Shown here: in pieces, positions 35,067-56,046 of the stretch
Layout of the letters: each line of letters opens with the position of its first letter
Position numbering within the stretch: position 1 is the first letter of the stretch
From: Phycisphaeraceae bacterium
Lineage (GTDB): Bacteria; Planctomycetota; Phycisphaerae; Phycisphaerales; UBA1924
DNA length: 64,000 nucleotides
Direction of reading: 5' to 3'
NCBI GenBank assembly: GCA_019636675.1
Contig: JAHBXC010000002.1
Location: forward strand, 186,001 to 250,000
Program-made: the position numbers and the translations under genes
The notes under the pieces: generated by a model
The model's database searches: none
The model's input: only the letters and a program-made list of their open reading frames with translations
Told to the model about the DNA's origin: nothing

Positions 35067-35390
35067 TCAGTCCCGGTCGACGCGGACATACTTCATGTTG
35101 AGCCCGCCCTGAATGGCGTCGCCCTCCCTGGTGAGTACCTGCGATCCTCCGGGGCCTTTCAGGATGACCCGCTTGCCGTCGACTTCGTACTCGGCGGCGA
35201 ACACGGTGCCCACGACGGTGGTGACGTAGACGCGCCGGCCCTTGAACTCGAGGGCGCCCAGCCCGCTGACCTCTCGGTACTCGCCCGAAAGGCCGCCGCC
35301 GCGACCGGCGAAGGTCCACCCTGCGATGAGCAGCGAAGCCACGGTCGCGAGGAGGCCCCACCCGGCGCGGCGGCGGTTGGGAATGGGCAT
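35067..35390 (-). CDS. Hypothetical membrane-anchored or exported protein
   Basis: This 107-residue protein has a hydrophobic N-terminal segment (GWGLLATVASLLIAGWTFA, about residues 10-28) after a basic start, so it is anchored or exported. The remainder is a small beta-rich region (GEYREVSGLGALEFKGRRVY and GKRVILKGPGGSQVLT) ending in NMKYVRVDRD. No named family is recognised. It is divergent from the sigma-factor gene, 110 bp away, and may be co-regulated with it. The gap 34977-35066 on its other side holds the small unit's promoter. Confidence 0.5.
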   Translation of the reverse strand: MPIPNRRRAGWGLLATVASLLIAGWTFAGRGGGLSGEYREVSGLGALEFKGRRVYVTTVVGTVFAAEYEVDGKRVILKGPGGSQVLTREGDAIQGGLNMKYVRVDRD

Positions 35391-35500: not shown

Positions 35501-36076
35501 ATGAAATCACCTTCGAGCAGCCCAAACGACGACGCCGGGGTGATCACGGACACGATGTACTCCGAGCTGCGCCGGATCGCGCACCGGGTCTTCGCGTCCG
35601 AGCGGAGAGACCACACCCTTCAGCCCACGGCGGTCGTGAACGAGGCCTGTATCCGCCTGCTGTCGGGCGGCCTGCCGGAGCTGCCTCGCGCGCAGCAGCT
35701 CGCGATCGGCGCGAGGGTTCTCAGGCAGGTGCTCATCGACCACGCGCGAGCGCGCAACGCGGATAAGCGCGGCGGGGGGGGCGCCGGGGGCGCCGGGGGC
35801 GCAGGCGCGATCCGTCTCGATCTCGATCGTGACATCCTCGCGCACGACGCAGAGCAGATCGAGTTCGGCGCGATCACCGAGGCGATGGACCGGCTCCGCG
35901 CGCTGAGCGAGCGCCAGGCGGAAGTCGTCACGCTCCGGCTTTTCGCCGGGATGACCATGGAGCAGATCGCGTCGGTGCTCGATGTCTCGAAGCGAACCGT
36001 CGAGTCTGACTGGGCGGTGGCCCGCGCGTGGCTGCGGCGTGAGCTGTCCGCTTCGCTGGGGGAGTCCTCGGAGTGA
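35501..36076 (+). CDS. ECF-type RNA polymerase sigma factor (planctomycete-expanded group)
   Basis: This 191-residue protein has a sigma region 2-like start (YSELRRIAHRVFASERRDHTLQPTAVVNEACIRLL, the typical phrase of the TIGR02999 group with the TLQPTA motif), a Gly/Ala-rich linker (about residues 85-105), and a sigma region 4 helix-turn-helix (RQAEVVTLRLFAGMTMEQIASVLDVSKRTVESDWAVARAWLRREL). It should recruit RNA polymerase to particular promoters. It overlaps the following kinase gene by GTGA, so the kinase may control its activity, as reported for other planctomycete ECF/kinase pairs. No anti-sigma gene is visible. ATG 35501 has no good ribosome site. Confidence 0.85.
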   Translation: MKSPSSSPNDDAGVITDTMYSELRRIAHRVFASERRDHTLQPTAVVNEACIRLLSGGLPELPRAQQLAIGARVLRQVLIDHARARNADKRGGGGAGGAGGAGAIRLDLDRDILAHDAEQIEFGAITEAMDRLRALSERQAEVVTLRLFAGMTMEQIASVLDVSKRTVESDWAVARAWLRRELSASLGESSE

Positions 36077-38499
36077 GCGAGCGAGACCTGCACGAGCGCG
36101 CTTCGGAGGTCTTTCTCGCGCTGCGCGGGCTCGACGGGCCCGAGCGCGAGCGCCGTCTCGACGAGCTGACATCCGGCGATGCCGCGCTGCGCGCCGAGGC
36201 GGCGTCGCTGCTGGCGCACGATGTCGGAGGCGCAGACGACGCCGACGAGACCGGGACGCCTTCGATGATCGGCCCGTACCGGGTGATCGGGCGCCTGGGT
36301 CGCGGCGGGGGCGGGTATGTGCTGCTCGCGGAGCAGGACGAGCCGGTGCGCCGGCGCGTCGCGATCAAGGTCGCGCCCTACGCGGCGGTCGACCCGGACG
36401 CGGCAGCTCGTTTCGAGTTCGAGCGCCGCGCGCTCGAGCAGACCGAGCACCCCAACATCGCGAGGATCCTCGACGCCGGTCGCACGCCGGAGGGGCTGCC
36501 CTTCATCGTGATGGAGTATGTCGAGGGCGAGCCGATCACCGCCTATTGCGAGCGCATGGCTCTCGGCGTGCGCGAGCGGATCGGCCTGATGCTCGATGTC
36601 GCCGGCGCGGCCCAGCACGCGCACCAGCGCGGCGTGATCCACCGCGACCTCAAGCCCGGCAACATCCTCGTCAGCGGCGCGAGCGGGAAACCCTCGGTGC
36701 GCGTGCTCGATTTCGGGATCGCGAAGGCGATCGCCAGCACAGAGTTGTCCGAGGGTGCGCCGACGTCGGGGCTCCCGATCGGGACGCCGGCCTACATGGC
36801 GCCCGAGCAGACCGGCGGGCGCCCCGTCGACATCCGCGCCGATGTCTACGCGCTGGGCGCGGTGTTGTACGAACTGGTCGCAGGGCGAGCGCCTGTCGAC
36901 ACGGGCGCCGACCCGTGGGAGGCGATGCGTCGCGTTCGCGAGGACACGCCGCCCCCGGCGTCGAGCGAGCGGCGTCACGGCGCGCCGAGGGCGCTGCTCG
37001 CCGACCTCGACTGCGTGCTCGCGAAAGCGCTCGAGAAGAACCCCGATCGGCGCTACCCGACCGCGGCGTCGCTGGCGGAGGACCTGGGGCGCGTGCTGCG
37101 CGGCGAGGCGATCGTCGCGCGAAGGCCGACGCCGGGGTACCGCGCGGCGCGCTTCGTGGGGCGAAACCGTGCGCTGGTCGCGTCGGGCGTTGTCGTCGCT
37201 CTGGCCGCGTCGGTGGGGGTCGCCGGGCTGGCGATCGGCCTGCGCGAAGCGGACGCGCAGCGGCGCGAGGCCACCCTGCAGCGCGACGCCCAGCGCGAGA
37301 TCAACCGCTTTCTGACCGAGGACCTTCTCGCCGCCGCGTCCGCGGACCGCGAGGGGCAGCACGCGACGGCTCTGGACCTGCTGCGCAGCGCGAGCCGCAG
37401 GGTGGAGTCCCGGTTGTCGCAGCGACCCGAGATCGCGGCCGCGATCCATCACACCCTGGGCGGCGCCTACATGGAGCTCGGCGAGTACGACGATGCGCAG
37501 GCGCATTTCGCGCGTGCGCTCGAACTCCGTCGCGCCGCGTCCGGCCCCGACTCGCCGGACACCGTTCGCTCAGAGGTCGCGGTCGCCGGGCTCCTCGGCG
37601 CGCGCCAGATGTACGCCGAGGCCGAGCCGGCGCTCCTGGCGGCGATCGAGCGGGCGCGACTGATCCTCGGGGCCGGCGACCCGGCCCTCTACGCGGCGCT
37701 GAACGATCTGGGCGTCGTGTACGAGTCCCTCGATCGCGCGTCCGCGGCGGTGGGGCTGCTGCGCGAGGCGCTCGAGGGCCGGGCGCGCCTTCTGGGCGCG
37801 CAGGACCCGCTCGTGCTGGTGACGACCAGCAATCTCGCGCAGGCCTACGACCGGGCGGGCGACCCGGAGCGATCGCTGGCGCTCATGCTCGACGCGTTGC
37901 GGATCGCCGAGTCGATGCCCGACGCGCCGAGGATGACGCTGCTCGGGCTCCACAACAACATCGGCGCAACGATGCAGGATCTGCGACGAGAACACGACGC
38001 GGCGCCGCATCTGCGCGTGGCGGCGGATCTCGCGTACGAGTCGCTCGGCGCGGAGCACCCGGCGACGCTCACGATCCGGGGGAACCTGGCCGGGCTGGAG
38101 GCCAAGATCGGCAACCCGCTCCGGGCGGCGGAGCTGTACGAAGAGGTCGTGAAGGTTCAGGCGTCACTGTTCGGGGCCGACGCGCTGAGCACCCTGACCG
38201 CGAGGTACGGGCGATGGAACGCGATGCGTCTCGCAGGTCGCCCGTCCGAGGCCGCCGCCGGCTTTGGGACGCTGCTGGAAGACATGACCCGCGCGCTCGG
38301 CGATCCGCACTGGCTGACCAACCAGACCCGTGTGACGCTGGCGCGTGTGCTGCTCGATTCGGGTCGGGCCGGGGAAGCGATGGTCCACGCCGAGCGCGGG
38401 CTTGAGCACTTTCTTGCGCTCTACGGCCCAGAGCATTCCCGGGCGCAGACCGCGTCGCAGCTCGTCGACGAGATCCGTGTGTCCCTTTCACGACAGTGA
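36073..38499 (+). CDS. Ser/Thr protein kinase with C-terminal TPR repeats
   Basis: This 808-residue protein starts at GTG 36073 and has an N-terminal region of about 60 residues, a kinase domain (IGRLGRGGGGYVLLAE glycine loop, VAIKVAP lysine, HRDLKPGNIL with Asp192, DFGIAK, GTPAYMAPEQ), a transmembrane segment at about residues 370-390 (ALVASGVVVALAASVGVAGLAIGL), and then TPR-like repeats (HHTLGGAYMELGEYDDAQAHFARALEL and several more). The kinase is cytoplasmic and the TPR part probably outside. It overlaps the sigma-factor gene by 4 bp and the next kinase region follows closely, so this is a signalling operon. Confidence 0.88.
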   Translation: MSERDLHERASEVFLALRGLDGPERERRLDELTSGDAALRAEAASLLAHDVGGADDADETGTPSMIGPYRVIGRLGRGGGGYVLLAEQDEPVRRRVAIKVAPYAAVDPDAAARFEFERRALEQTEHPNIARILDAGRTPEGLPFIVMEYVEGEPITAYCERMALGVRERIGLMLDVAGAAQHAHQRGVIHRDLKPGNILVSGASGKPSVRVLDFGIAKAIASTELSEGAPTSGLPIGTPAYMAPEQTGGRPVDIRADVYALGAVLYELVAGRAPVDTGADPWEAMRRVREDTPPPASSERRHGAPRALLADLDCVLAKALEKNPDRRYPTAASLAEDLGRVLRGEAIVARRPTPGYRAARFVGRNRALVASGVVVALAASVGVAGLAIGLREADAQRREATLQRDAQREINRFLTEDLLAAASADREGQHATALDLLRSASRRVESRLSQRPEIAAAIHHTLGGAYMELGEYDDAQAHFARALELRRAASGPDSPDTVRSEVAVAGLLGARQMYAEAEPALLAAIERARLILGAGDPALYAALNDLGVVYESLDRASAAVGLLREALEGRARLLGAQDPLVLVTTSNLAQAYDRAGDPERSLALMLDALRIAESMPDAPRMTLLGLHNNIGATMQDLRREHDAAPHLRVAADLAYESLGAEHPATLTIRGNLAGLEAKIGNPLRAAELYEEVVKVQASLFGADALSTLTARYGRWNAMRLAGRPSEAAAGFGTLLEDMTRALGDPHWLTNQTRVTLARVLLDSGRAGEAMVHAERGLEHFLALYGPEHSRAQTASQLVDEIRVSLSRQ

Positions 38500-38515
38500 T
38501 TGCGCGTTGTATACT
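38487..38515 (+). promoter_or_regulatory. Promoter-like sequence at the start of the CHASE2-kinase gene
   Basis: TTCACG (38487-38492) and TATACT (38510-38515) are 17 bp apart, the second box being a near-consensus -10. It overlaps the end of the preceding kinase gene and argues against the in-frame GTG at 38496 as the only start of the next gene. Confidence 0.4.
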
Positions 38516-38585
38516 GAGCGTGGAGCGCGCGGGCCACCGGAGGCGCCGCGCCCGGCGTGTGCAGCACGGAAAGGCGGTCGAGCGG

Positions 38586-40943
38586 ATGGCTGGCCCCGAC
38601 GAGCGGCGTGAAGGGCGTGATCCGTTGTGGGGGCCGACCAGGTCCCTGCCCGGCGAGTTCGCGCACGAGCAAGACGCCAAGTCAGCGCGTGACGGCGAAA
38701 CGCTCCGCGTCGGCAGCGTGGTCGGGGGGTGCGTGATCCAGTCGCTGATCGCCGAGGGTGGCCAGGGCGTCGTCTATCGCGCTCGCCAGGCCCAGCCCGA
38801 CCGGACGGTGGCGATCAAGACGCTGCGCCCCAGCCGGCTCGACCCGCGTCGCGTCGAGCGGTTCCTCGCCGAGTGCGACCTGCTCTCGAAGAACGCGCAC
38901 CCCAACATCGTCACGCTCCATGTCGTGGGCAGCTACGAGTGCTCTCCCGGTGTCAGCGCCCCATACCTCGTGATGGGGTACGTCGCTTCGGCCCGTTCGA
39001 TCACCGAAGCGGCCCGGGCGTTCGGCTGGACCGAAGAGCAGAAGATCGCGAAGTTCCAGGACGCGTGCCGCGCCGTCGCGTTCCTGCACAAGCGCGGGGT
39101 GCGTCATTTCGATCTGAAGCCGGCGAACATCCTCGTCGACGACGACGGGCTGGTTCGCGTGTCGGACCTCGGGCTCGCGCGGTCGTACTCCGAGCGGCTC
39201 GTCGTGTCGCCCGGTGGCACGCTCTCACACATGAGCCCCGAGCAGTGCCGCGGCGACCCAGAGTCTCTCGACGCGCGCAGCGACATCTATTCGCTGGGCG
39301 TGGTCCTGTACGAACTGCTCAGCGGGCGCCTGCCGATCGACATCCGGTCCGAAGAGGGCGTGCCGCTGAAAACCGAGGACGTGTTCGAGCGGATCTGCAC
39401 GCAGCCCCCGACGCCGCTCGCGCAGCGCGCGCGGGCCATCGATCCTGCGTTGGCGGCGATCGTGATGCGCGCGCTGCAGAAACGCCCCCAGGACCGGTAT
39501 CAGAGCGTCGACGAGATGCTCCAGGCGCTCGAGAACTACCTGGAGGAGAATCGGCGTCGGCGCATCGCGCGCGTGTTCACCGAGAGCCGGCGGCGTGTGC
39601 AGCGCGGCGCGGCGCTCCTCGTGCTCGCCATCCTCGCGACCTTCGCGGCGCTCGGGGTCGGCTGGGTGGCGACCGAACGCACCGGGTATGTGGCGAGGTG
39701 GGAGGCCTTCGTCGCGAGCAACCTCGGCCCGGCGACCCCGGCCGGAGCGCCGTTCTACGCGTCCGTGATCGAGTACGCCGAGACGACCGATCCTGTCGCG
39801 CTCGCCGAAGCGACGGGGGTCGCCGGGGTCACCGCCGAGGTGCGCACCCATCGCGCACTCCACGGCCAGCTCGCGCGCACCCTCGCCAGATCCGGCGCCA
39901 GAGCCGTGGTGTTCGACATCGTCTTCCGCGCGGAATCGGAGTACGACGACGCGCTCGTGTCGGGCATCCAGGCGCTCCGTGACGCCGGCATCGGCGTGGT
40001 CGTCGCGTCGTCCTCGTGGACGATCGATGAAGCGAAGGGAAAGCCGCAGATCAGCGAGAGCATCTGGAAGCACGCCGACTGGGGCTGCTTCGAGGTCCAG
40101 CTGACGATGGACGGGCGTCTGTGGATCCCGCTCGCGGTGGCCCGCGCCGGGCACGAACCGATGCCATCGCTCGCCTTGGCCGCGTACGCGGCGTCCCGGG
40201 CCGAGGGCGCCCGGTTCAGTTTCGGGCTCGATCGCGACCGCCGGGCGCTCGACATCGTGTACTGGCAGCCCGTGTCCGATCGCCCGGGGGGCCGACGCCT
40301 GCTGGCTCGCTCCGACCGGCTCGCGGCAACGGATATCGACTCGTTCGAATCGTGGTCGGGCATTGAGAACCGTGGCATGCTCGAGGGCGACCTCATCGCG
40401 TGGTACAAGCCGGCGATGCTCGAGATGGCGCAGCTGCGCAGCGCGACCCGCCTGTATGACGACGTCATTCGCGCGAGCGAGCAGGACCTGCGGGCCTGGT
40501 TCGCCGACAAGGTCGTGTTCATCGGGAACTTCACGGCTCGCGCCGGCGATATCCACGATGTGAACGGCGAGGACTGGCCGGGCGTCTATTTCCACGCGAT
40601 CACGCTCGAATCCCTGGCGCGCGACATCCGCCCGCGCGTCGCAGACTGGGCCGCCCACGCGATGCTCGGGCTCCCGGTCGCGATCACGGGCGCCGGCGTC
40701 CCGGTTCTCATGCTGCGCCGCCGGTCGGGGCGTGCGGCCCGCGCCGCCGCGATGGGCGTGTTCGTCGCGCTCACGCTGCTGGCGCCGGCGGCGCTCGCGG
40801 CGCTGCTCTACAAGCAGGGCCTTGTTCTGCTGAATCCGCTGACGCTCTGTCTGGGCGTCGCGTTCACCGGGCTCTTCTGGTGGATCGCCTTCCGCTTGTT
40901 CACGCGTTCGCAACCGCACGGCCGCTCAGGAGTGGTGTCATGA
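38586..40943 (+). CDS. Ser/Thr protein kinase with CHASE2 sensor domain
   Basis: This protein of about 785 residues has an N-terminal kinase domain, a transmembrane helix (about 342-362, AALLVLAILATFAALGVGW), a large extracytoplasmic CHASE2 domain (ARTLARSGARAVVFDIVFR, ALRDAGIGVVVASSSW, FADKVVFIGNFTARAGDIHDV), and three C-terminal helices, the usual CHASE2 topology. The kinase loop is HFDLKPANIL (Asp176; HFD instead of HRD) and the metal loop is SDLGLA instead of DFG, so it is a non-RD kinase. ATG 38586 is preferred; a GTG at 38496 overlapping the preceding stop would add 30 basic residues. It overlaps the next gene by ATGA. Confidence 0.85.
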   Translation: MAGPDERREGRDPLWGPTRSLPGEFAHEQDAKSARDGETLRVGSVVGGCVIQSLIAEGGQGVVYRARQAQPDRTVAIKTLRPSRLDPRRVERFLAECDLLSKNAHPNIVTLHVVGSYECSPGVSAPYLVMGYVASARSITEAARAFGWTEEQKIAKFQDACRAVAFLHKRGVRHFDLKPANILVDDDGLVRVSDLGLARSYSERLVVSPGGTLSHMSPEQCRGDPESLDARSDIYSLGVVLYELLSGRLPIDIRSEEGVPLKTEDVFERICTQPPTPLAQRARAIDPALAAIVMRALQKRPQDRYQSVDEMLQALENYLEENRRRRIARVFTESRRRVQRGAALLVLAILATFAALGVGWVATERTGYVARWEAFVASNLGPATPAGAPFYASVIEYAETTDPVALAEATGVAGVTAEVRTHRALHGQLARTLARSGARAVVFDIVFRAESEYDDALVSGIQALRDAGIGVVVASSSWTIDEAKGKPQISESIWKHADWGCFEVQLTMDGRLWIPLAVARAGHEPMPSLALAAYAASRAEGARFSFGLDRDRRALDIVYWQPVSDRPGGRRLLARSDRLAATDIDSFESWSGIENRGMLEGDLIAWYKPAMLEMAQLRSATRLYDDVIRASEQDLRAWFADKVVFIGNFTARAGDIHDVNGEDWPGVYFHAITLESLARDIRPRVADWAAHAMLGLPVAITGAGVPVLMLRRRSGRAARAAAMGVFVALTLLAPAALAALLYKQGLVLLNPLTLCLGVAFTGLFWWIAFRLFTRSQPHGRSGVVS

Positions 40944-41764
40944 ACAGTCCCGTTCAGCGAATTTCCGGCATCGTTCTCGCGATCGGGATCTGCGCCGGGG
41001 TCGGGGCCGATCCCGTCGTCCTCCAGCCCTTCAAGCCGCTCAAGGTCGTTGTGGCCGACTCCAAGCCCGTGACAGCAGATCACGGCTCCGTGGTGATCAC
41101 CGACGCGAGCACGACCAGCGACCAGAGCTCGACCCAGGAGTTCAAGGCCGCGGTCTTCCCGCAGCGTTACCTGGTCACGGGCGACCACGTGCAGTCGAAC
41201 GCGTCCGTCGAGGTGTCGGGCCCGGGAGGTCTCGGGAACCACATCGTGCTCGATCGGGGCATCGTGGTCGCCGAGTTGGGGTATCTGCCCCTCGACATCC
41301 CCGAGCAGGCAGGAAACGCGGGCGACATCGAGCCCGCGAACATCATGATGCTCCGGCGCCCGTACCCCGTGACGACGATTCGCTCGATCGGCGCCGGCGC
41401 CGAGGGATCGATCATCCTCTTCGCGACGACGGTCGGGATCATCACCGCCGTCGATCCCGCGTCGACTTCCAGCGTCGTCGACGTGGTGATGCTGTGCCTC
41501 GACGTCGATGACGTCGCGACCTCCGAGCTTCACGCGATGGAGATCGACGGGTCGGGCCCGACGGTGACGATGACGCTCTCCGGCTCCGAGACCACGACGC
41601 ATTTCATCAGCGTCAGCATCACGACCAGCGCAGCCGGCGTCGTGACGGTGGCGTCGCCCGTGAAGCGGCTCTTCACCGACCACGCCAGGATCGGTGCGCT
41701 GCGTGATTCGCTGAACAAGACCCGCACCGCGAACGGCGCCGACTTCTGGCTGCCGGGGCTCTGA
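40940..41764 (+). CDS. Secreted protein of unknown family, copy 1 (downstream of CHASE2 kinase)
   Basis: This 274-residue protein has an N-terminal signal (MNSPVQRISGIVLAIGICAGVGA) and no recognised domain. It is related to the protein at 41848-42681: both contain GNHIVLDRGIVV / HNHLVLDRGVAV, a block LRRPYPVTTIRSIGAGAEGS / LRRPYPLTTIRSIGAGAEGS, a VVDVVM/DVVMMY strand, and a C-terminal DSLxxxxxxxGxxFWxPGL. It starts at ATG 40940, overlapping the kinase stop, with AGGAG 7 bases upstream. Its place directly behind a CHASE2 kinase suggests an extracytoplasmic partner or ligand of that sensor (inference). Confidence 0.6.
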   Translation: MNSPVQRISGIVLAIGICAGVGADPVVLQPFKPLKVVVADSKPVTADHGSVVITDASTTSDQSSTQEFKAAVFPQRYLVTGDHVQSNASVEVSGPGGLGNHIVLDRGIVVAELGYLPLDIPEQAGNAGDIEPANIMMLRRPYPVTTIRSIGAGAEGSIILFATTVGIITAVDPASTSSVVDVVMLCLDVDDVATSELHAMEIDGSGPTVTMTLSGSETTTHFISVSITTSAAGVVTVASPVKRLFTDHARIGALRDSLNKTRTANGADFWLPGL

Positions 41765-41847
41765 CGCAAAGAACCGAGTGCACGCGAGGTTCTGCCTCGC
41801 CGGCCTCCGGTGCGCGGACCACAACGACACGAATGCAGGAACCGACC

Positions 41848-42681
41848 ATGGGCACGAGCAGATTGAGCAAAGCAACGACCATCCTCTGCGCGATCGGCCT
41901 GACGACCACCGCCGGGGTGAGCAACCCGGTGATGGAGGAGATCTCGCAAACCAGGCGGACGCCGCTGCCTGGTCCGATCCTGCAGCCCATCACGACACCG
42001 CTCGGCTCCGTCGTCGTCAGGGATGCGCGAACACAACCCGGAGCGAGCGGGGAGCGGTTCGATGTCGCGGTCTTTGCGCAGATGGCCAAGCACACCAATG
42101 ATCAGTGCGCCACGAGGGCGGAGTACAGGAGCGAAGACGCCCTTCGGGGTCTGCACAATCACCTCGTGCTCGATCGGGGCGTCGCGGTCTTCAATGCAGA
42201 GGGCGTTGAGTCGGCCGGCGCGCACGCTGCGGGAGTCCAGGCGGATGCTGCCCAGATCCTGCGGCGTCCCTATCCCCTGACGACAATCCGATCGATAGGC
42301 GCCGGGGCGGAGGGCTCGATCATCGTCGTCGCGGTCACGACAGGCGTCCTGAGTCCCGCGCCTCAGAATCCGGTCCACACCAGCATCGATGTCGTGATGA
42401 TGTATCTCTCGGGCACGGATTCGTCGGTCCTCTACGCGTCGCAGCACTTCGCCGACGGAAGGGGCTTCGTCGAGACGGGGCAACTCCCCGGCACCCGGCG
42501 CGATCGAGACTTTCTGTCCGTCAACCTGATCCTCGATGAGAACGGGGCCGTCGTCAGGGCCGGGGGGCCGGCAACCCTCTCGCTCGCCGAGCAGAAGCAC
42601 ACGAGGATTCGGGATCTGCGTGACTCACTCCAGGCCCAGCTGAAGGTCCACGGCGAACGCTTCTGGGAGCCCGGCCTCTAG
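41848..42681 (+). CDS. Secreted protein of unknown family, copy 2
   Basis: This 277-residue protein has a signal segment (MGTSRLSKATTILCAIGLTTTAG) and the same core and end motifs as its upstream neighbour (LRRPYPLTTIRSIGAGAEGS, EGSIIVVAVTTGVL, FWEPGL at the C-terminus). ATG 41848 with AGGA 7 bases upstream is preferred over ATG 41833. The two differ a good deal outside these blocks, so the duplication is not recent. The gene is 83 bp behind copy 1, with no terminator in between, and is followed by the broken antiporter gene. Function unknown. Confidence 0.6.
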   Translation: MGTSRLSKATTILCAIGLTTTAGVSNPVMEEISQTRRTPLPGPILQPITTPLGSVVVRDARTQPGASGERFDVAVFAQMAKHTNDQCATRAEYRSEDALRGLHNHLVLDRGVAVFNAEGVESAGAHAAGVQADAAQILRRPYPLTTIRSIGAGAEGSIIVVAVTTGVLSPAPQNPVHTSIDVVMMYLSGTDSSVLYASQHFADGRGFVETGQLPGTRRDRDFLSVNLILDENGAVVRAGGPATLSLAEQKHTRIRDLRDSLQAQLKVHGERFWEPGL

Positions 42682-42747: not shown

Positions 42748-43843
42748 ATGCACATCGAATCGCTGAATCACTTCGAGCTGATCGCCGCCGTGCTGCTCCT
42801 GGCGACGGCGGCGGGCGCGATCGTGACGCTGCTGCGCCAGCCGCTGATCGTCGCGTTCATCGCGGTGGGCATCCTCGCCGGCCCGGTCGGTCTCGGCCTG
42901 TGCGCGAGGGAGACTTCTTCCCGGCGCTCGCGGAGATGGGCATCGCGTTGCTGCTGTTCCTTGTGGGTTTGCGTCTGGACCTGCAGGTGATCCGGACGAT
43001 GGGCCCGGTCGCGCTCGCGACGGGGCTGGGGCAGGTCGCGTTCACCTCGATCATCGGGTTCGGGCTCTGCCTGGCGCTGGGGCTGAGCGTGGTCGCCTCG
43101 ATCTATGTCGCGGTCGCGCTGACCTTCTCGAGCACCATCATCATCGTCAAGCTGCTGAGCGACAAGCGCGAGATCGATTCGTCTGCGAGACGCTCGGGCA
43201 CATCGACTCGGGCGTCATGGGCCTGATCACGCTCGTGGGTCTGATCACGATCGGGCTGTCGACGTACATGATCCTTTACTCGCACCCGCTGTACGAGTTC
43301 CTTGCGCCGGCGCTGCGCGTGTTCGAGCGCCGGTCTCCTCATCGCGAGACCAACGACGAGAGCGATGCGCCGGAGGGCGCCGACGCGATCGTGGTCGGCA
43401 TGGGGCGCTACGGGCTGAACATCGCGAAGGAGCTGAGGTCGCGAGGGTGGTCGGTGCTGGGCGTCGACTTCGACCCGCACGCGGTCAGAAACGCGACGGC
43501 GCAGGGCATCAATGCGCACTACGCCGACGCGGAAGACCCGGAGGAGCTCGGCGAACTTCCCATCGCGTCGGCGCGGTGGGTCGTCTGCACGACGCCGCTG
43601 CACGCGACGGAGCGGAGCATCCTCGAGTCGCTGCGAGCGAACGGCTACAAGGGGATGGTGGCGGCGACGGCGCACCGCGCCGAGGAGGCGTCGGCGCTGG
43701 AGCGAGCGGGCGTGACGATGACGCTGTTCCCCTACGCCGACGGCGCGGTTCGCGCCGCCGAGCGGATCGACTCGCACGAGCCGGGGCGCCGTTCGGCGCC
43801 GGTGGTCACTCGGCCCGACGCTGCGCCGCGAGCAGACGCGTGA
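42748..43843 (+). pseudogene. Broken KefB-type cation:proton antiporter (CPA2) with TrkA-N domain
   Basis: Three plus-strand frames together encode parts of one CPA2 antiporter. 42748 to about 42900 gives the first helices (HFELIAAVLLLATAAGAI, LILRQPLIVAF-type, GILAGPVGLGL). About 42900-43170, shifted by one base, continues exactly with REGDFFPALAEMGIALLLFLVGLRLDL to KLLSDKREIDS. From about 43178, in the third frame, GHIDSGVMGLITLVGLITIG and a complete TrkA-N domain (DAIVVGMGRYGLNIAKELRSRG) follow. The middle membrane helices (roughly 200 residues) are absent. The gene therefore carries one frameshift and an internal deletion, and cannot make a working antiporter; an assembly error is the alternative. 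It overlaps the convergent kinase gene by 38 bp. Confidence 0.75.
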
Positions 43844-46127
43844 TCACCGCGTGGATGCTGGGTTCGTAGGTGACGAGGTCGGGGCCGGTCGCCGTGCCTT
43901 CGGCGATGCGCCGGCGGAGTCGTTCGAGTGACCACTCGGCCCACTCCACGGCTTCTGGCAGGGCGCTGAGGAGCTCGGGCGAGGCGAGCGGAGACTCGGA
44001 CGCGATCGCGAGGGCGTTCGAGAGGTACATCCCGGTGACCATAGCGGTCCTGCCGATGGTCCCGTCCTCGGAGTGAATGTGGTCGATCTCGCGGCTGCGG
44101 CGCACGATCTCACGCATGGGCTCGAGACGGTCGTTGATCTGGAGACCGGCGTCGGCGCGCGTGAGGATGTAGTCGGCGTGGAGGCTGAGAATCCGCATCT
44201 CCAGAACCGGACGCAGGCCTTCGTGCGTCGATGTCGGCTGCGAGCCGAGGAGTGAGAGGGCGTCGTCGAAGAGCGTGACCCCATCGAGCGGGCGCCCCGA
44301 CTCCCTCGACACGATCCCTGCCGGCAGCGCGGCGCGGATCAGCAGGTCGACGCGTTCGTTCGCGTCATCGATGCGAGGGAGGATCTCGCGCACACGGGGG
44401 AAGAGTTCGAGGAACCGGTCGAGCGAGCCGCCCGGGTTTGCCTGGTGGTTGCGCATGGCGTGCGCGGCGCGGATGTCGAATCGCAGGAGCGAGAGGTCGT
44501 CCTCGACGCGCCCCGGATCGAGTCGCGACGCGGCGAGGGTGAGCTCGCTCGCGCGCTCGAGGCGCGCGCTGCTGCCGGCGGGTCCGTAAGGGGGGAACTC
44601 CCAGTGGTGCGCGTTCTGGTGCGCGAACGCCGTGGCTCGCGCGAGGGGCGCGTTCATCCCGAAGCGCTCGAGGGCGCGTTCTCCCAGGGCGGCGGCGTGG
44701 TCGAGCGGCTCTTTGGCGCTGGGGAGTCCGAGCGAGGCGAAGTCCGGATGGCCCAGGGCGGCGCCCAGTTTCGTGTACGCATCGACGAGTTCGCGCGCAA
44801 ACTCGGGATCCTTCAAGGCGTGGTGCTCGAGGGCCCGGTAGCTGTCCAGCGTGCGCCGGAGCACCTCGGCCCGGATTTCGACGGCCCCCGGCACGCGCTC
44901 GAGCTGATCGATGAAATCCACGACGAGCGATGTGCTGAGCGCGCGCAGGTCCACCAGCCGGCCCTCGGCGTCGGCCTGGGCACGCCTTGCGTCGACGGCC
45001 TGCACCACAGCGACCGTCGCGACCGAGAGCACGGTGACGACGCCGAGCGTCAGCAGCCCCGCTTCGCGCCGATTGCGCTTCGCGAGGCGCCAGAGTCTGC
45101 CCATCGCCCCGGTGGGCTTGGCGTGGATCGGCTCGCCCCCGAGCCAGCGGCGAAGGTCGTCGCGCATGGCGGCGGCGGAGATGTAGCGGTCCATGGGGGA
45201 CTTCTCGAGCGCCGTGAGGACGATGGTCTCGAGGTCCGCCGGGATGTCGCGCCGGAACTCACGCGGGCTGCGCGGCGTGTCGTTGATCACGCGCTGCGCG
45301 GCGCGGGTGAAGGGGACGCCGTCGAGGTCGACCGGGTGCACGCCGGTCAGGGCGCGATAGAGCATCGCGCCCAGCGCGTAGACATCCGAGCACGCGCCCC
45401 CGGCGCGTCCCTCGAACTGTTCGGGCGCCATCGCGGTCAGAGTGCCGAAGCCGTGGGTGAGCAGGGTGAGCGTTGATTCACCCACCTTGTCGTCGAGGAG
45501 CCTGGCGATGCCGAAATCGAGGACCTTGGGGACCAGGTCGGCGCGCACGAGGATGTTGCCGGGTTTGAGGTCCAAGTGCAGGACGCCGTGCTCGTGCGCA
45601 CACGCGATGGCGTCCGCGATGTGCATGATCACGGTCGCGCGCTGGCGCAGGTCGAGGCCGTGCGCGTCGATCGCCTCGAGCAGGGGGAGGCCCTCGACAT
45701 ACTCCATAAGGATCCAGGGAGTCCCGCGGAGCTGCCCGCGGCACTGGCCGGCGGCGTAGAGGCGCGCGATGTTCGGGTGGTCGAGCCGGCCGAGCGCGAC
45801 GGCTTCCCGTTCGAGGCGCCGAATGAATCTCGGGTCGCGCAGATCGGGGTTCAGGATCTTGAGCGCCGCGCGGCGCTCGGTGGACCGCTGGATGACCTCG
45901 AGCACCACGCCCATCCCGCCGCGACCGATCTCGCGGACCGCGTGGAGCCCGGGGACCGCGCCGCGCAGCCACTCCAGCTCGTCGGGAGGCGGCTGCGGCG
46001 CGCTGCGCGCCGGGTTCGCCAGTGTGAGGAAATCGCCCGCTTCGCGCGCGACGAACTCGTCGAGATCTTCACGACCCTCGAGGTCGCGAAGGAACGATTC
46101 CCAGATCTCGTCGGGGCGGGCGGTCAT
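43806..46127 (-). CDS. Ser/Thr protein kinase with C-terminal helical region
   Basis: This 773-residue protein has an N-terminal region of about 70 residues, a kinase domain (IGRGGMGVVLEVIQ glycine loop, AALKILNPDLRD lysine, HLDLKPGNILV with Asp, DFGIARLLDD, FGTLTAMAPEQFEG), a transmembrane segment (about residues 360-380, GLLTLGVVTVLSVATVAVVQ), and about 400 helical residues of TPR-like character. The catalytic loop reads HLD rather than HRD. It is a single gene, divergent from the exported protein at 46406. ATG 46127 is chosen because it is the first start close to the kinase region. Confidence 0.82.
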   Translation of the reverse strand: MTARPDEIWESFLRDLEGREDLDEFVAREAGDFLTLANPARSAPQPPPDELEWLRGAVPGLHAVREIGRGGMGVVLEVIQRSTERRAALKILNPDLRDPRFIRRLEREAVALGRLDHPNIARLYAAGQCRGQLRGTPWILMEYVEGLPLLEAIDAHGLDLRQRATVIMHIADAIACAHEHGVLHLDLKPGNILVRADLVPKVLDFGIARLLDDKVGESTLTLLTHGFGTLTAMAPEQFEGRAGGACSDVYALGAMLYRALTGVHPVDLDGVPFTRAAQRVINDTPRSPREFRRDIPADLETIVLTALEKSPMDRYISAAAMRDDLRRWLGGEPIHAKPTGAMGRLWRLAKRNRREAGLLTLGVVTVLSVATVAVVQAVDARRAQADAEGRLVDLRALSTSLVVDFIDQLERVPGAVEIRAEVLRRTLDSYRALEHHALKDPEFARELVDAYTKLGAALGHPDFASLGLPSAKEPLDHAAALGERALERFGMNAPLARATAFAHQNAHHWEFPPYGPAGSSARLERASELTLAASRLDPGRVEDDLSLLRFDIRAAHAMRNHQANPGGSLDRFLELFPRVREILPRIDDANERVDLLIRAALPAGIVSRESGRPLDGVTLFDDALSLLGSQPTSTHEGLRPVLEMRILSLHADYILTRADAGLQINDRLEPMREIVRRSREIDHIHSEDGTIGRTAMVTGMYLSNALAIASESPLASPELLSALPEAVEWAEWSLERLRRRIAEGTATGPDLVTYEPSIHAVITRLLAAQRRAE

Positions 46128-46405
46128 GCGCGGATCCGTGCCAGGGATGCGTGGCCGGAGCCGACTCACTGTACACGATCCCTGGCGTTTCGAAAGACGT
46201 ATCTCCCCCGGAATTCGTGGCATGCGCCCCAAAAGCGGATTCCGGTTGTCCGTGACCGCGTGCGTGCGCGGGTGCATCCCGGCGCCCGGTCGGGACGAAC
46301 GACCACCCAATGGGGTGCGCCCGCGTCGCGGGCGTGCGCTTCGGTGCGCCCGCGCGAGCGGGCGTGTCAAAGGTCAGTGTCACAGTTCTGAATAGGAGAG
46401 AGACA

Positions 46406-53463: not shown

Positions 53464-56046
53464 ATGAGAAGAACTGACATCGGAAGGTCGAGCGTCTCCA
53501 CGCGGTCCGCGGCATACGCCCTGACGGCGGTTGTTGGCGCGGCCATCGGCTTGTCGGCCCCAGCGGTCGCGGTCGGCGAAGGCACGGCGTACATCTGCGC
53601 GACCGGCGGTTCGGTCAACCCGTTCTGCCCCTGGTTCACCGGTCAGGGCCCCATCCTGAGCGCCGTACTCGGGCAGAACGCGCCCACCTCCGGCCGCAAC
53701 GCGGTGATCGGCATGATCTCGGGCTTCCTGCCCCCGGTCCGGTTCGAGGGCGAGGGCCTTTCGCAGGTCGATCACGTGGTCTTCCAGGAGGGCAACTCCG
53801 GGCGTTCACGCGTGCTGGTGGGCATCATCGCCGGCGCGTACTCGAACGGCCGCTCCAGCGGCGATCCGACGCAGCTCAACGGCGAGAACCGTCTCCAGGT
53901 CCAGGCGGGCGGCGTGCTCGCCACCGCGATGGGCGACGGCGACTTCAACCCGTTCAACCCGTTCGTTGACACCACCCAGGGCGTCGCCGGCGAGGCACGC
54001 GCCATCGTCGCCTCGGTCGCCGCTTCGCTGTCCGGCGCCGACAACAACCCGCAGTTCGAGACCGACCTCAACGGCTTCGCGCGGTCGATGCTCATCATGG
54101 CCGACCGGACCACGGCGCTGCGCTTCGCTTCGGCGTACCCCGACATCAACGGCGATGGCAGCCCCGACGTCGTGACGGCGGATGTCATCGTGCTCGACAT
54201 CGCGGAAGGCGGCGACCTCGCGGGCGAGGGCTTCCTCCCTCGCGTCGCTGACGGCATCGTCTTCGACTACGACGTCACGGTCATCGCCCCCACGGGCGAC
54301 GGCGCCGACGCGGTCGGCGTCCCCCAGCAGCAGCGCCAGACCTTCATCTTCAACCGCACGCTCTTTGCGCCCGCGTCGGGGTACAACGTCCTGGCCGTCG
54401 GTGCGCAGGATTTCCCCGCTGGCACGATGTCCATGGGCGGCAGCTGCCCCAAGGAATACCGCGCTCAGTGGTTCAAGTCCGGTCGCGGCACGCTGCGTGC
54501 GCGCAACTACGCGCAGTTCGACCCCAACGAGCCGACCGGGTTCCAGGAGATCCCGCAGGCGCGCTCCGGCGTCGGCGTCGTCGCTCCCGGCACCAAGCTG
54601 CGCATCCCCGACATCACCGCGTTTAACGCGTTCGTCCGCGACGAGAACATCTGCGACCTGCTGCCCGAGGGCGGCGGCGGCGGCGGTCCGGGCGGCGAAA
54701 CCCCCGACGACCTCGCCGAGAGCACCCGTTTCGCAACCGGCTATGTCGCCGGCGCGATCGCGCTCGTCCAGGACGCGTACAAGAAGCTCAACGCCGCCCA
54801 GCCGACCATGTTCCGCCTGCCGCGCATTCCGGCGGTCACCATGAGGGCGATGGTCATCAACTCCGCGTCCCGAGCGCGTGCCGACATCGCATGCTGGACG
54901 AACACGGGCGAGTTCTACGAGGGCAACCCCGACCGCGGCGCCCAGCCCTTCGGCACCTGCGACCCCTTCACCGCCGACTCGACGCAGCGCTCGCTCGACG
55001 CGTCGGTGGGCGGCGGGCTCCTCGACCTCGTCGCGCTCCACGAGAACTTCCAGGGCCGCGCCGCGGCCGAGGGCGTCCTCCAGCAGTTCGCCACGATGGA
55101 TGTGCCCACCACGGATCGGCGCATCCCCTACGTGCGCATCCCGCCCGGCCTCGGCCTCAATCGCGGCGGCGCCGGGTTCGGCGGCGGGCCCAGCGGCGGG
55201 CTCGGCGATAACGACAACAGCCTGCGCCCGCCTTTCCCGCCCCCGAACATCGGGCCCGGCGGCGAGATCCCGGCCGACTGGCCGATCCGTCAGATCATCC
55301 CTCGCGGGTTCCGTGACTTCGAGAACCCCAACACGGTGTTCATCCGCTCCGCGCTGCCCGTCGACTCGATCGGCTGGGACATCGCCCGACTCGGTCGCGG
55401 CTACGTCGACTATGTGATCACCACGCTCATCAACGCCGGCGACACCTTCTCGGCCACCCTCACCTGGAACCGCACGCAGCAGATCGACTGGCCGTTCGTC
55501 GCGCCGGGCTCGACCGAGGTCCTGCCCCCGAACATCCGCGACGCCGAGCTCCAGCTCGAGTACGAGGACATCAACCTCCTCCTGTTCTTCGCCGACTCGT
55601 CGGGCAACCCGTCGTTCCAGATCGGGCGCTCCGCGACCGAGTGGGACAACACCGAACTGATCTACTTCGATCAGTCCGTCGATCAGGGCCCCGGCGGCAT
55701 GCCCGTCACCGGTCGCTACCTGATGCGCGTGGAGTGGAACCAGCGCCGCTATGACCGCTTCCTCCGCCTCCCCGTCGCCGACACCGAGTTCGGTCTCGCC
55801 TGGCGAGCGATCACCATCGAGCAGCTGGCTCCCGGCGGCGGCCTCGCCTTCCAGAGCATCCCCGGCGATGTCAACCGCGACGGCGCCGTCGACCTCGCTG
55901 ACCTCAGCGCCGTCATCCAGAGCTTCGGCCAGATGGACTTCAACGCCGACGCCAACAGCGACGGCATCGTGAACATGGCCGACATCAACCTCGTGCTCGC
56001 CAACTTCGGGCGACGCGCCCCCGAGTCGCTCGCCTCCGCCGAGTAA
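53464..56046 (+). CDS. Exported subtilase-like protein lacking catalytic residues, with dockerin-like end
   Basis: This 860-residue protein has a long signal peptide (through AAIGLSAPAVA). Residues about 70-500 follow the order of an S8 subtilisin: VIGMISGFL at the catalytic-Asp strand, an AGGVLATAMGDG helix where the catalytic His would be, and STRFATGYVAGAIALVQDAY in place of GTSxAxPxVAGxxAL, where the Ser position is Arg422; then MRAMVINSASRA and GGGLLDLVAL. A Gly/Pro-rich linker, a beta-rich domain and two calcium loops (GDVNRDGAVDLADLS, ADANSDGIVNMADIN) follow. It is probably an inactive binding version. ATG 53464 is preferred to TTG 53458. Confidence 0.6.
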   Translation: MRRTDIGRSSVSTRSAAYALTAVVGAAIGLSAPAVAVGEGTAYICATGGSVNPFCPWFTGQGPILSAVLGQNAPTSGRNAVIGMISGFLPPVRFEGEGLSQVDHVVFQEGNSGRSRVLVGIIAGAYSNGRSSGDPTQLNGENRLQVQAGGVLATAMGDGDFNPFNPFVDTTQGVAGEARAIVASVAASLSGADNNPQFETDLNGFARSMLIMADRTTALRFASAYPDINGDGSPDVVTADVIVLDIAEGGDLAGEGFLPRVADGIVFDYDVTVIAPTGDGADAVGVPQQQRQTFIFNRTLFAPASGYNVLAVGAQDFPAGTMSMGGSCPKEYRAQWFKSGRGTLRARNYAQFDPNEPTGFQEIPQARSGVGVVAPGTKLRIPDITAFNAFVRDENICDLLPEGGGGGGPGGETPDDLAESTRFATGYVAGAIALVQDAYKKLNAAQPTMFRLPRIPAVTMRAMVINSASRARADIACWTNTGEFYEGNPDRGAQPFGTCDPFTADSTQRSLDASVGGGLLDLVALHENFQGRAAAEGVLQQFATMDVPTTDRRIPYVRIPPGLGLNRGGAGFGGGPSGGLGDNDNSLRPPFPPPNIGPGGEIPADWPIRQIIPRGFRDFENPNTVFIRSALPVDSIGWDIARLGRGYVDYVITTLINAGDTFSATLTWNRTQQIDWPFVAPGSTEVLPPNIRDAELQLEYEDINLLLFFADSSGNPSFQIGRSATEWDNTELIYFDQSVDQGPGGMPVTGRYLMRVEWNQRRYDRFLRLPVADTEFGLAWRAITIEQLAPGGGLAFQSIPGDVNRDGAVDLADLSAVIQSFGQMDFNADANSDGIVNMADINLVLANFGRRAPESLASAE

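Follow-up and report, generated by a model that had tools for sequence, protein, structure and literature searches.

In ordinary extracytoplasmic function (ECF) sigma factors, the DAED motif contacts RNA polymerase. ECF43 factors, as described in the parts of three papers available to us, usually carry an uncharged motif such as STTA or QTTA in its place, and the threonine is phosphorylated by a neighbouring kinase (PMC8999054, PMC13147305, PMC8103513). Signalling systems with a CHASE2 sensor domain have also been described, and the available portions of two papers report that in Campylobacterota CHASE2 adenylate cyclases are clustered with a FecR protein (PMC9239204) and that a CHASE2 histidine kinase of Burkholderia occurs with a LysM-FecR protein (PMC5192318). 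We analysed a 64,000-nucleotide stretch of the Phycisphaeraceae bacterium assembly GCA_019636675.1 (contig JAHBXC010000002.1, positions 186,001 to 250,000 of the forward strand; hereafter the window), in which a preliminary description had read a sigma factor, two Ser/Thr kinases and two secreted proteins as one envelope-sensing system with the sigma factor as its output. The results revealed that these five genes are two modules, module A (35501-38499) and module B (38586-42681), and that the secreted proteins of module B belong to a family whose genes lie behind a CHASE2-kinase gene at every locus compared. The locus comprises the following features.

35501-36076, plus strand: ECF sigma factor, module A (PF07638, 133 bits against a cut-off of 21; TIGR02999, 152.3 bits against a cut-off of 126.15)
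36073-38499, plus strand: Hanks Ser/Thr kinase, module A, with one transmembrane (TM) segment and a C-terminal tetratricopeptide repeat (TPR) region (Pkinase 131 bits, TPR_12 117 bits)
38487-38515, plus strand: promoter-like site TTCACG-17-TATACT, possibly module B's own promoter (consensus match only)
38586-40943, plus strand (longest open reading frame from GTG 38496): CHASE2 Ser/Thr kinase, module B (Pkinase 137 bits, CHASE2 56.9 bits)
40940-41764, plus strand: S1, exported protein, first twin, module B (AGGAG before the ATG; motif RRPYPVTTIRSIGAGAEGS; family member in profile searches)
41848-42681, plus strand (longest open reading frame from ATG 41833): S2, exported protein, second twin, module B (35% identity to S1; family member in profile searches)
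35067-35390, minus strand: small divergent protein, membrane or exported (GGGLSGEY...), with no Pfam match

All five open reading frames (ORFs) of the two modules were present on the plus strand at the positions given in the preliminary description, and both of its 4-bp overlaps were confirmed in the DNA: GTGA at 36073, between the sigma gene and the TPR kinase gene, and ATGA at 40940. Because of the promoter-like site at 38487-38515 and the reading of the DNA, ATG 38586 rather than GTG 38496 was favoured as the probable start of the CHASE2 kinase, which leaves a gap of ~86 bp behind the TPR kinase gene. Similarly, ATG 41848 was taken as the probable start of S2 because it is preceded by AGGA. 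The promoter-like site was the only one on the plus strand between 35000 and 43000, and on both strands together two were found, compared with 0.2 expected in shuffles. As the CHASE2 kinase probably starts after a gap and a promoter-like site, the earlier wording that the genes lie "in one run" is true for strand and closeness, not for a single proven transcript.

The proposal that two related secreted proteins without a known family are encoded directly behind the CHASE2 sensor was borne out: the sequence blocks originally quoted are common to S1 and S2, and neither protein gave a Pfam match apart from one chance-level match. Both begin with a basic stretch followed by a hydrophobic stretch, the N-terminal hydropathy being clear for S1 and below the threshold used for S2. 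The CHASE2 domain of the kinase scored well above the PF05226 cut-off of 26.3 bits, with TM peaks on both sides; numbered on the long form, hydropathy peaks were located near residues 373-391, 722-740, 745-763 and 776-794. Since the N-terminal kinase domain precedes a TM segment, CHASE2 follows it, and further TM segments stand at the C-terminal end, CHASE2 should face the periplasm, the compartment in which S1 and S2 are also expected.

Among 61 genomes, the window CHASE2 kinase was matched through its CHASE2 part (E ≤ 1e-50) at 10 loci of other genomes. All 10 carried an exported-family gene behind the kinase, which in two of them (G002 and G030) was recognised only later, by profile searches. 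The regions behind the matched kinases encoded exported proteins or lipoproteins, most of them with WPIIxTRxIxAGAEGT, which corresponds to RRPYPxTTIRSIGAGAEGS of S1 and S2. With S1 alone as query, none of the 60 relatives was matched, and S2 alone found no relative in the contig search; the family became visible only through an alignment of the proteins behind the kinase relatives and a motif profile. By a first profile of 12 motif segments (S1, S2 and 10 seeds), 27 of the 301 genomes searched in the order had the family; by a second of 38 segments, 40 of the 163 searched in the bacterial family did. In a phylum-wide sample it was present in 9 of 392 genomes, all of them in the window's family and one other family of the same order. 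Counting the window, 42 loci in 41 genomes held 60 members in all, and the twins are members of a very divergent, fast-changing, undescribed family without a Pfam entry.

The regions upstream of the 58 members outside the window were then compared with a profile of the CHASE2 part built from eleven such kinases. The results demonstrated a CHASE2-kinase gene upstream on the same strand for every one of them (36/36 and 22/22, together 58/58), either adjoining the member or separated from it by the first twin only. For 56 of the 58 members, the kinase domain itself was also detected; the other two lie on one 4.5-kb contig, the end of which is probably the cause. Ten of the 58 were profile seeds picked from behind such kinases and are not independent, whereas sequence was the sole route to the remaining 48. 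A family match was the only reason for retrieving 30 of the loci (17 + 13), two of which, G065 and G093, also appeared in the CHASE2 list. The expected link between the secreted proteins and the CHASE2 kinase therefore held in other genomes; the contrary outcome, in which most family members would lie apart from such kinases, was not observed.

The start of the first copy ranged from 58 bases inside to 171 bases after the kinase gene, with a 4-bp overlap very frequent and start codons assigned by a simple rule. The genes flanking the module B units varied between clades. In one clade (L041, L110 and L113), the unit was located beside purE/purK-like and ubiA-like genes, as read from their N-termini, and at L117 beside a purE-like gene alone. 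Of the 60 members, 57 had a hydrophobic run within the first 40 residues and 29 had a lipobox-like motif, both scored by simple patterns and with starts picked partly for the hydrophobic run. Over 15 chosen locus pairs, mean identity was highest in the kinase (68%), lower in CHASE2 plus TM (51%) and lowest in the exported protein (45%). None of the open-access papers found in our searches described an exported protein as the partner of CHASE2 Ser/Thr kinases.

The best explanation, to which we assign a probability of roughly 60%, is that two independent phospho-signalling modules stand side by side and that the exported protein serves the CHASE2 kinase as its own periplasmic partner, binding CHASE2 and setting the state of the kinase. 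Such a partner would account most simply for the fixed pairing. Module B would act as a transmembrane sensor with its Ser/Thr kinase domain in the cytoplasm and CHASE2 in the periplasm, and we infer that the exported protein or proteins would bind CHASE2 and hold or switch the kinase according to an envelope or chemical cue, by analogy with the FecR proteins beside CHASE2 cyclases. The tandem copies in about four of ten loci would be a diverged pair, probably two subunits or two alternative inputs that would act jointly. In module A, the TPR kinase would activate the neighbouring sigma factor, probably by phosphorylating Thr43.

Several points weigh against this explanation. Synteny is a record of common history and probably of joint expression rather than of contact. 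In this genome the modules are neighbours, which makes crosstalk between them possible. The distances of the exported protein and of CHASE2 gave a partial correlation, beyond the kinase domain, of 0.18 over 820 locus pairs, on alignments too divergent to rely on. Regarding the analogy with FecR, 56 of the 60 members were scanned against Pfam (E limit of 1 in one scan and 10 in the others), and none reached the FecR cut-off (PF04773, 24 bits). An hhalign comparison of the family with FecR gave E values of 0.2 and 0.12 and a probability of 0.5% or less, which is not significant, and with a local FecR profile the median of the 60 members (-3.4) was slightly higher than that of their shuffled copies (-4.4), the distributions overlapping. 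Two lines of support were tried and rejected: the mirror-tree comparison of these distances, with partial correlations (0.18 and 0.10) too weak and identities too saturated, and a higher FecR-profile rank relative to 256 other ORFs, an unfair control in which most of those ORFs had no score at all.

One alternative concerns the identity of the exported proteins. They could be true FecR-domain proteins that have diverged beyond recognition, which would make module B a Ser/Thr-kinase version of the CHASE2/FecR pairing; we regard the chances of this as evenly balanced, and it can hold together with the role of a periplasmic partner. FecR was the sole Pfam family matched by more than one of 43 members in one scan, through weak matches in two of the 56 members (E 0.0081 and 0.097). 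S1 and S2 gave none, and the 54 members without any FecR match count against the identity, as do the cut-off and profile results above. In both weak matches, the near-invariant Gly of Gly-Thr was in register, at FecR profile positions 74 and 76 compared with 73-75 in six FecR proteins (by interpolation), and the hhalign score of the family exceeded all 60 column shuffles. FecR genes also occupy the equivalent place beside other CHASE2 proteins of the same order: six of the neighbouring proteins were tested with Pfam, all matched FecR and four did so above the cut-off, and nine more ORFs from other CHASE2 regions showed the same FecR signature by eye. Structure prediction yielded no usable fold match, with models at a predicted local distance difference test score (pLDDT) of 50-60. 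The AlphaFold model of S2 (37 sequences) reached a pLDDT of 49.6, and that of the member from genome G012 (43 sequences) a pLDDT of 59.9 and a predicted template modelling score of 0.37, both too poor to use. Fold searches with the G012 model gave a best Foldseek E of 0.38 and a best VIA Z of 4.3 (root-mean-square deviation 2.2 over 47 residues), the model being too poor to interpret, and the absence of a FecR entry from the rows shown is uninformative for the same reason. PDB sequence searches returned chance-level rows only. Because no cut-off was reached, the profile comparison was not significant, the shuffles overlapped and the models were poor, we did not file the family under FecR; it holds the position of FecR and may be a distant relative of it.

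The window genome encodes one other CHASE2 protein (L127, G000:C1:1345928-1361000), a cyclase; the gene immediately upstream of it is FecR-like (E 2e-46 with a local profile). Together with module B, this places both partner types in one genome.

Two tandem copies were present in 18 of the 42 loci. The mates were mutually closest in nine loci (18 of the 36 copies). In the other nine twin loci, which belong to three clades, copy 1 matched copy 1 and copy 2 matched copy 2 of other genomes, or a single copy elsewhere. These relationships suggest about a dozen separate doublings, with the limit that in best-hit tests of tandem mates, independent duplication and gene conversion within a locus give the same sign. 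A broader proposal, which we put forward tentatively and with some doubt, is that this is a new, fast-diverging family of periplasmic receptor partners, confined to two related bacterial families, matched one-to-one with CHASE2 Ser/Thr kinases and repeatedly and independently doubled, so that the receptor's sensing half would itself be a complex of two proteins, its specificity shifting with the twins.

The exported proteins could also be products that go with the signal, either co-expressed envelope or surface proteins or targets of the pathway, rather than sensors. In favour of this, the family shows the rapid evolution seen in surface-exposed proteins. However, the place behind one receptor type was invariant over 41 other loci while the flanking genes differed between clades, and co-expressed products would be expected beside other regulators too, which makes this account unlikely. 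A dedicated periplasmic partner of CHASE2 is still preferred, and the genomic rule that the family always stands behind a CHASE2 kinase is solid and surprising; its function we infer from that rule.

Module A is, by its sequence features, an already known kind of switch and fits what the literature describes as ECF43 sigma factors, which are activated by phosphorylation. The usual acidic DAED of region 2.2 was replaced by QPTA, with Thr43 at the phosphorylated position. Measured against the motif definition in the available parts of PMC8999054 and PMC13147305, the sigma factor showed both an adjacent Ser/Thr kinase gene and an uncharged motif with Thr in place of DAED; its group match was to TIGR02999, and the likeness to ECF43 lies in the motif and the neighbouring kinase. 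The Thr was kept in 23/23 TPR-kinase-linked sigma factors compared. The comparison set consisted of 30 TPR-kinase loci among the matches listed, own locus included; a sigma factor of such type was present within ~1.5 kb in 23 of them, and a CHASE2 kinase of the module B type within that flank in the own locus only. The TM segment of the TPR kinase was placed at residues 372-390 by hydropathy. A contig search with this kinase returned mostly general kinases, the best named record being "Phycisphaerae bacterium SAT56" (34%).

The closest relatives of the sigma factor and TPR kinase pair were found in genomes G015 (59%) and G029 (55%), the sigma factor being present in both. In these two genomes, the genes behind the TPR kinase were unrelated to those of the window and included no CHASE2 kinase. 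The CHASE2-kinase unit of G015 was located on another contig, and G029 gave neither a CHASE2-kinase match nor an exported-family member. The small divergent gene at 35067-35390 had a clear relative in the same divergent place beside the sigma factor of G015 (L228:7605-8027), and it is assigned to module A and not to module B on this basis; its product may be a third component of this sigma/kinase module.

In the reverse comparison, the 41 other CHASE2-kinase loci were searched with tblastn (E ≤ 0.01 and 1e-3) over stretches of 4.5 to 19 kb, and neither the sigma factor nor the TPR part of its kinase had a relative there. Two loci, L045 and L123, had sigma-like genes of different kinds nearby, recognised by eye. 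A conserved neighbourhood gives no support to the sigma factor as the output of the CHASE2 kinase. It is very improbable that the genes form a single envelope-sensing pathway, with the neighbouring sigma factor as a substrate of both kinases and the secreted proteins as ligands for the CHASE2 kinase, despite the shared strand, the close spacing, the 4-bp overlaps inside each module and the kinase-activated features of the sigma factor, since in its closest relatives the pair is followed by different genes, the CHASE2-kinase loci of other genomes have no such sigma factor within the stretches searched, and a promoter-like site stands between the modules.

Directly behind S2, the window contains a broken gene for a Kef-type cation/proton antiporter (42748-43843, plus strand), with two Na_H_Exchanger pieces and one TrkA_N piece in separate overlapping ORFs. 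A third Hanks kinase (43809-46370, minus strand; Pkinase 128 bits) is convergent with it, which brings the Ser/Thr kinase genes to three within 11 kb of the window. Further along, positions 53464-56043 of the plus strand encode a large protein that carries a dockerin type I domain and gave a subtilase match below threshold.

A fixed exported partner makes CHASE2 sensing a testable two-protein question. The partners recorded so far suggest that CHASE2 receptors in general may work with an exported protein, FecR in the case of cyclases and histidine kinases and the present family in the case of Ser/Thr kinases. The locus also advises caution, in that adjacent kinases and sigma factors are not to be taken as one pathway.

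Compared with ECF43 factors and their cognate Hanks kinases, EcfP-PknT and EcfK-PknS, as presented in the available parts of the papers (PMC8999054, PMC13147305, PMC8103513), module A is alike in that the sigma gene overlaps a Ser/Thr kinase gene and DAED gives way to an uncharged motif with Thr, here QPTA. It differs in the TPR sensor region on the kinase and in the small divergent neighbour common with G015. The order of kinase domain, TM segment and C-terminal TPR region is like that of the Planctomycetota Ser/Thr kinases with TPR arrays in PMC11032199, the available main text of which does not mention CHASE2. Module B, set beside the CHASE2/FecR pairs in the available parts of PMC9239204 and PMC5192318, likewise has a CHASE2 receptor and an exported partner encoded side by side. 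It differs from them in its N-terminal Ser/Thr kinase output, in a partner that follows the receptor, is not recognisable as FecR by Pfam and often has a tandem twin. The module B unit is best regarded as a new form of the pairing, already known, between a CHASE2 receptor and an exported partner.

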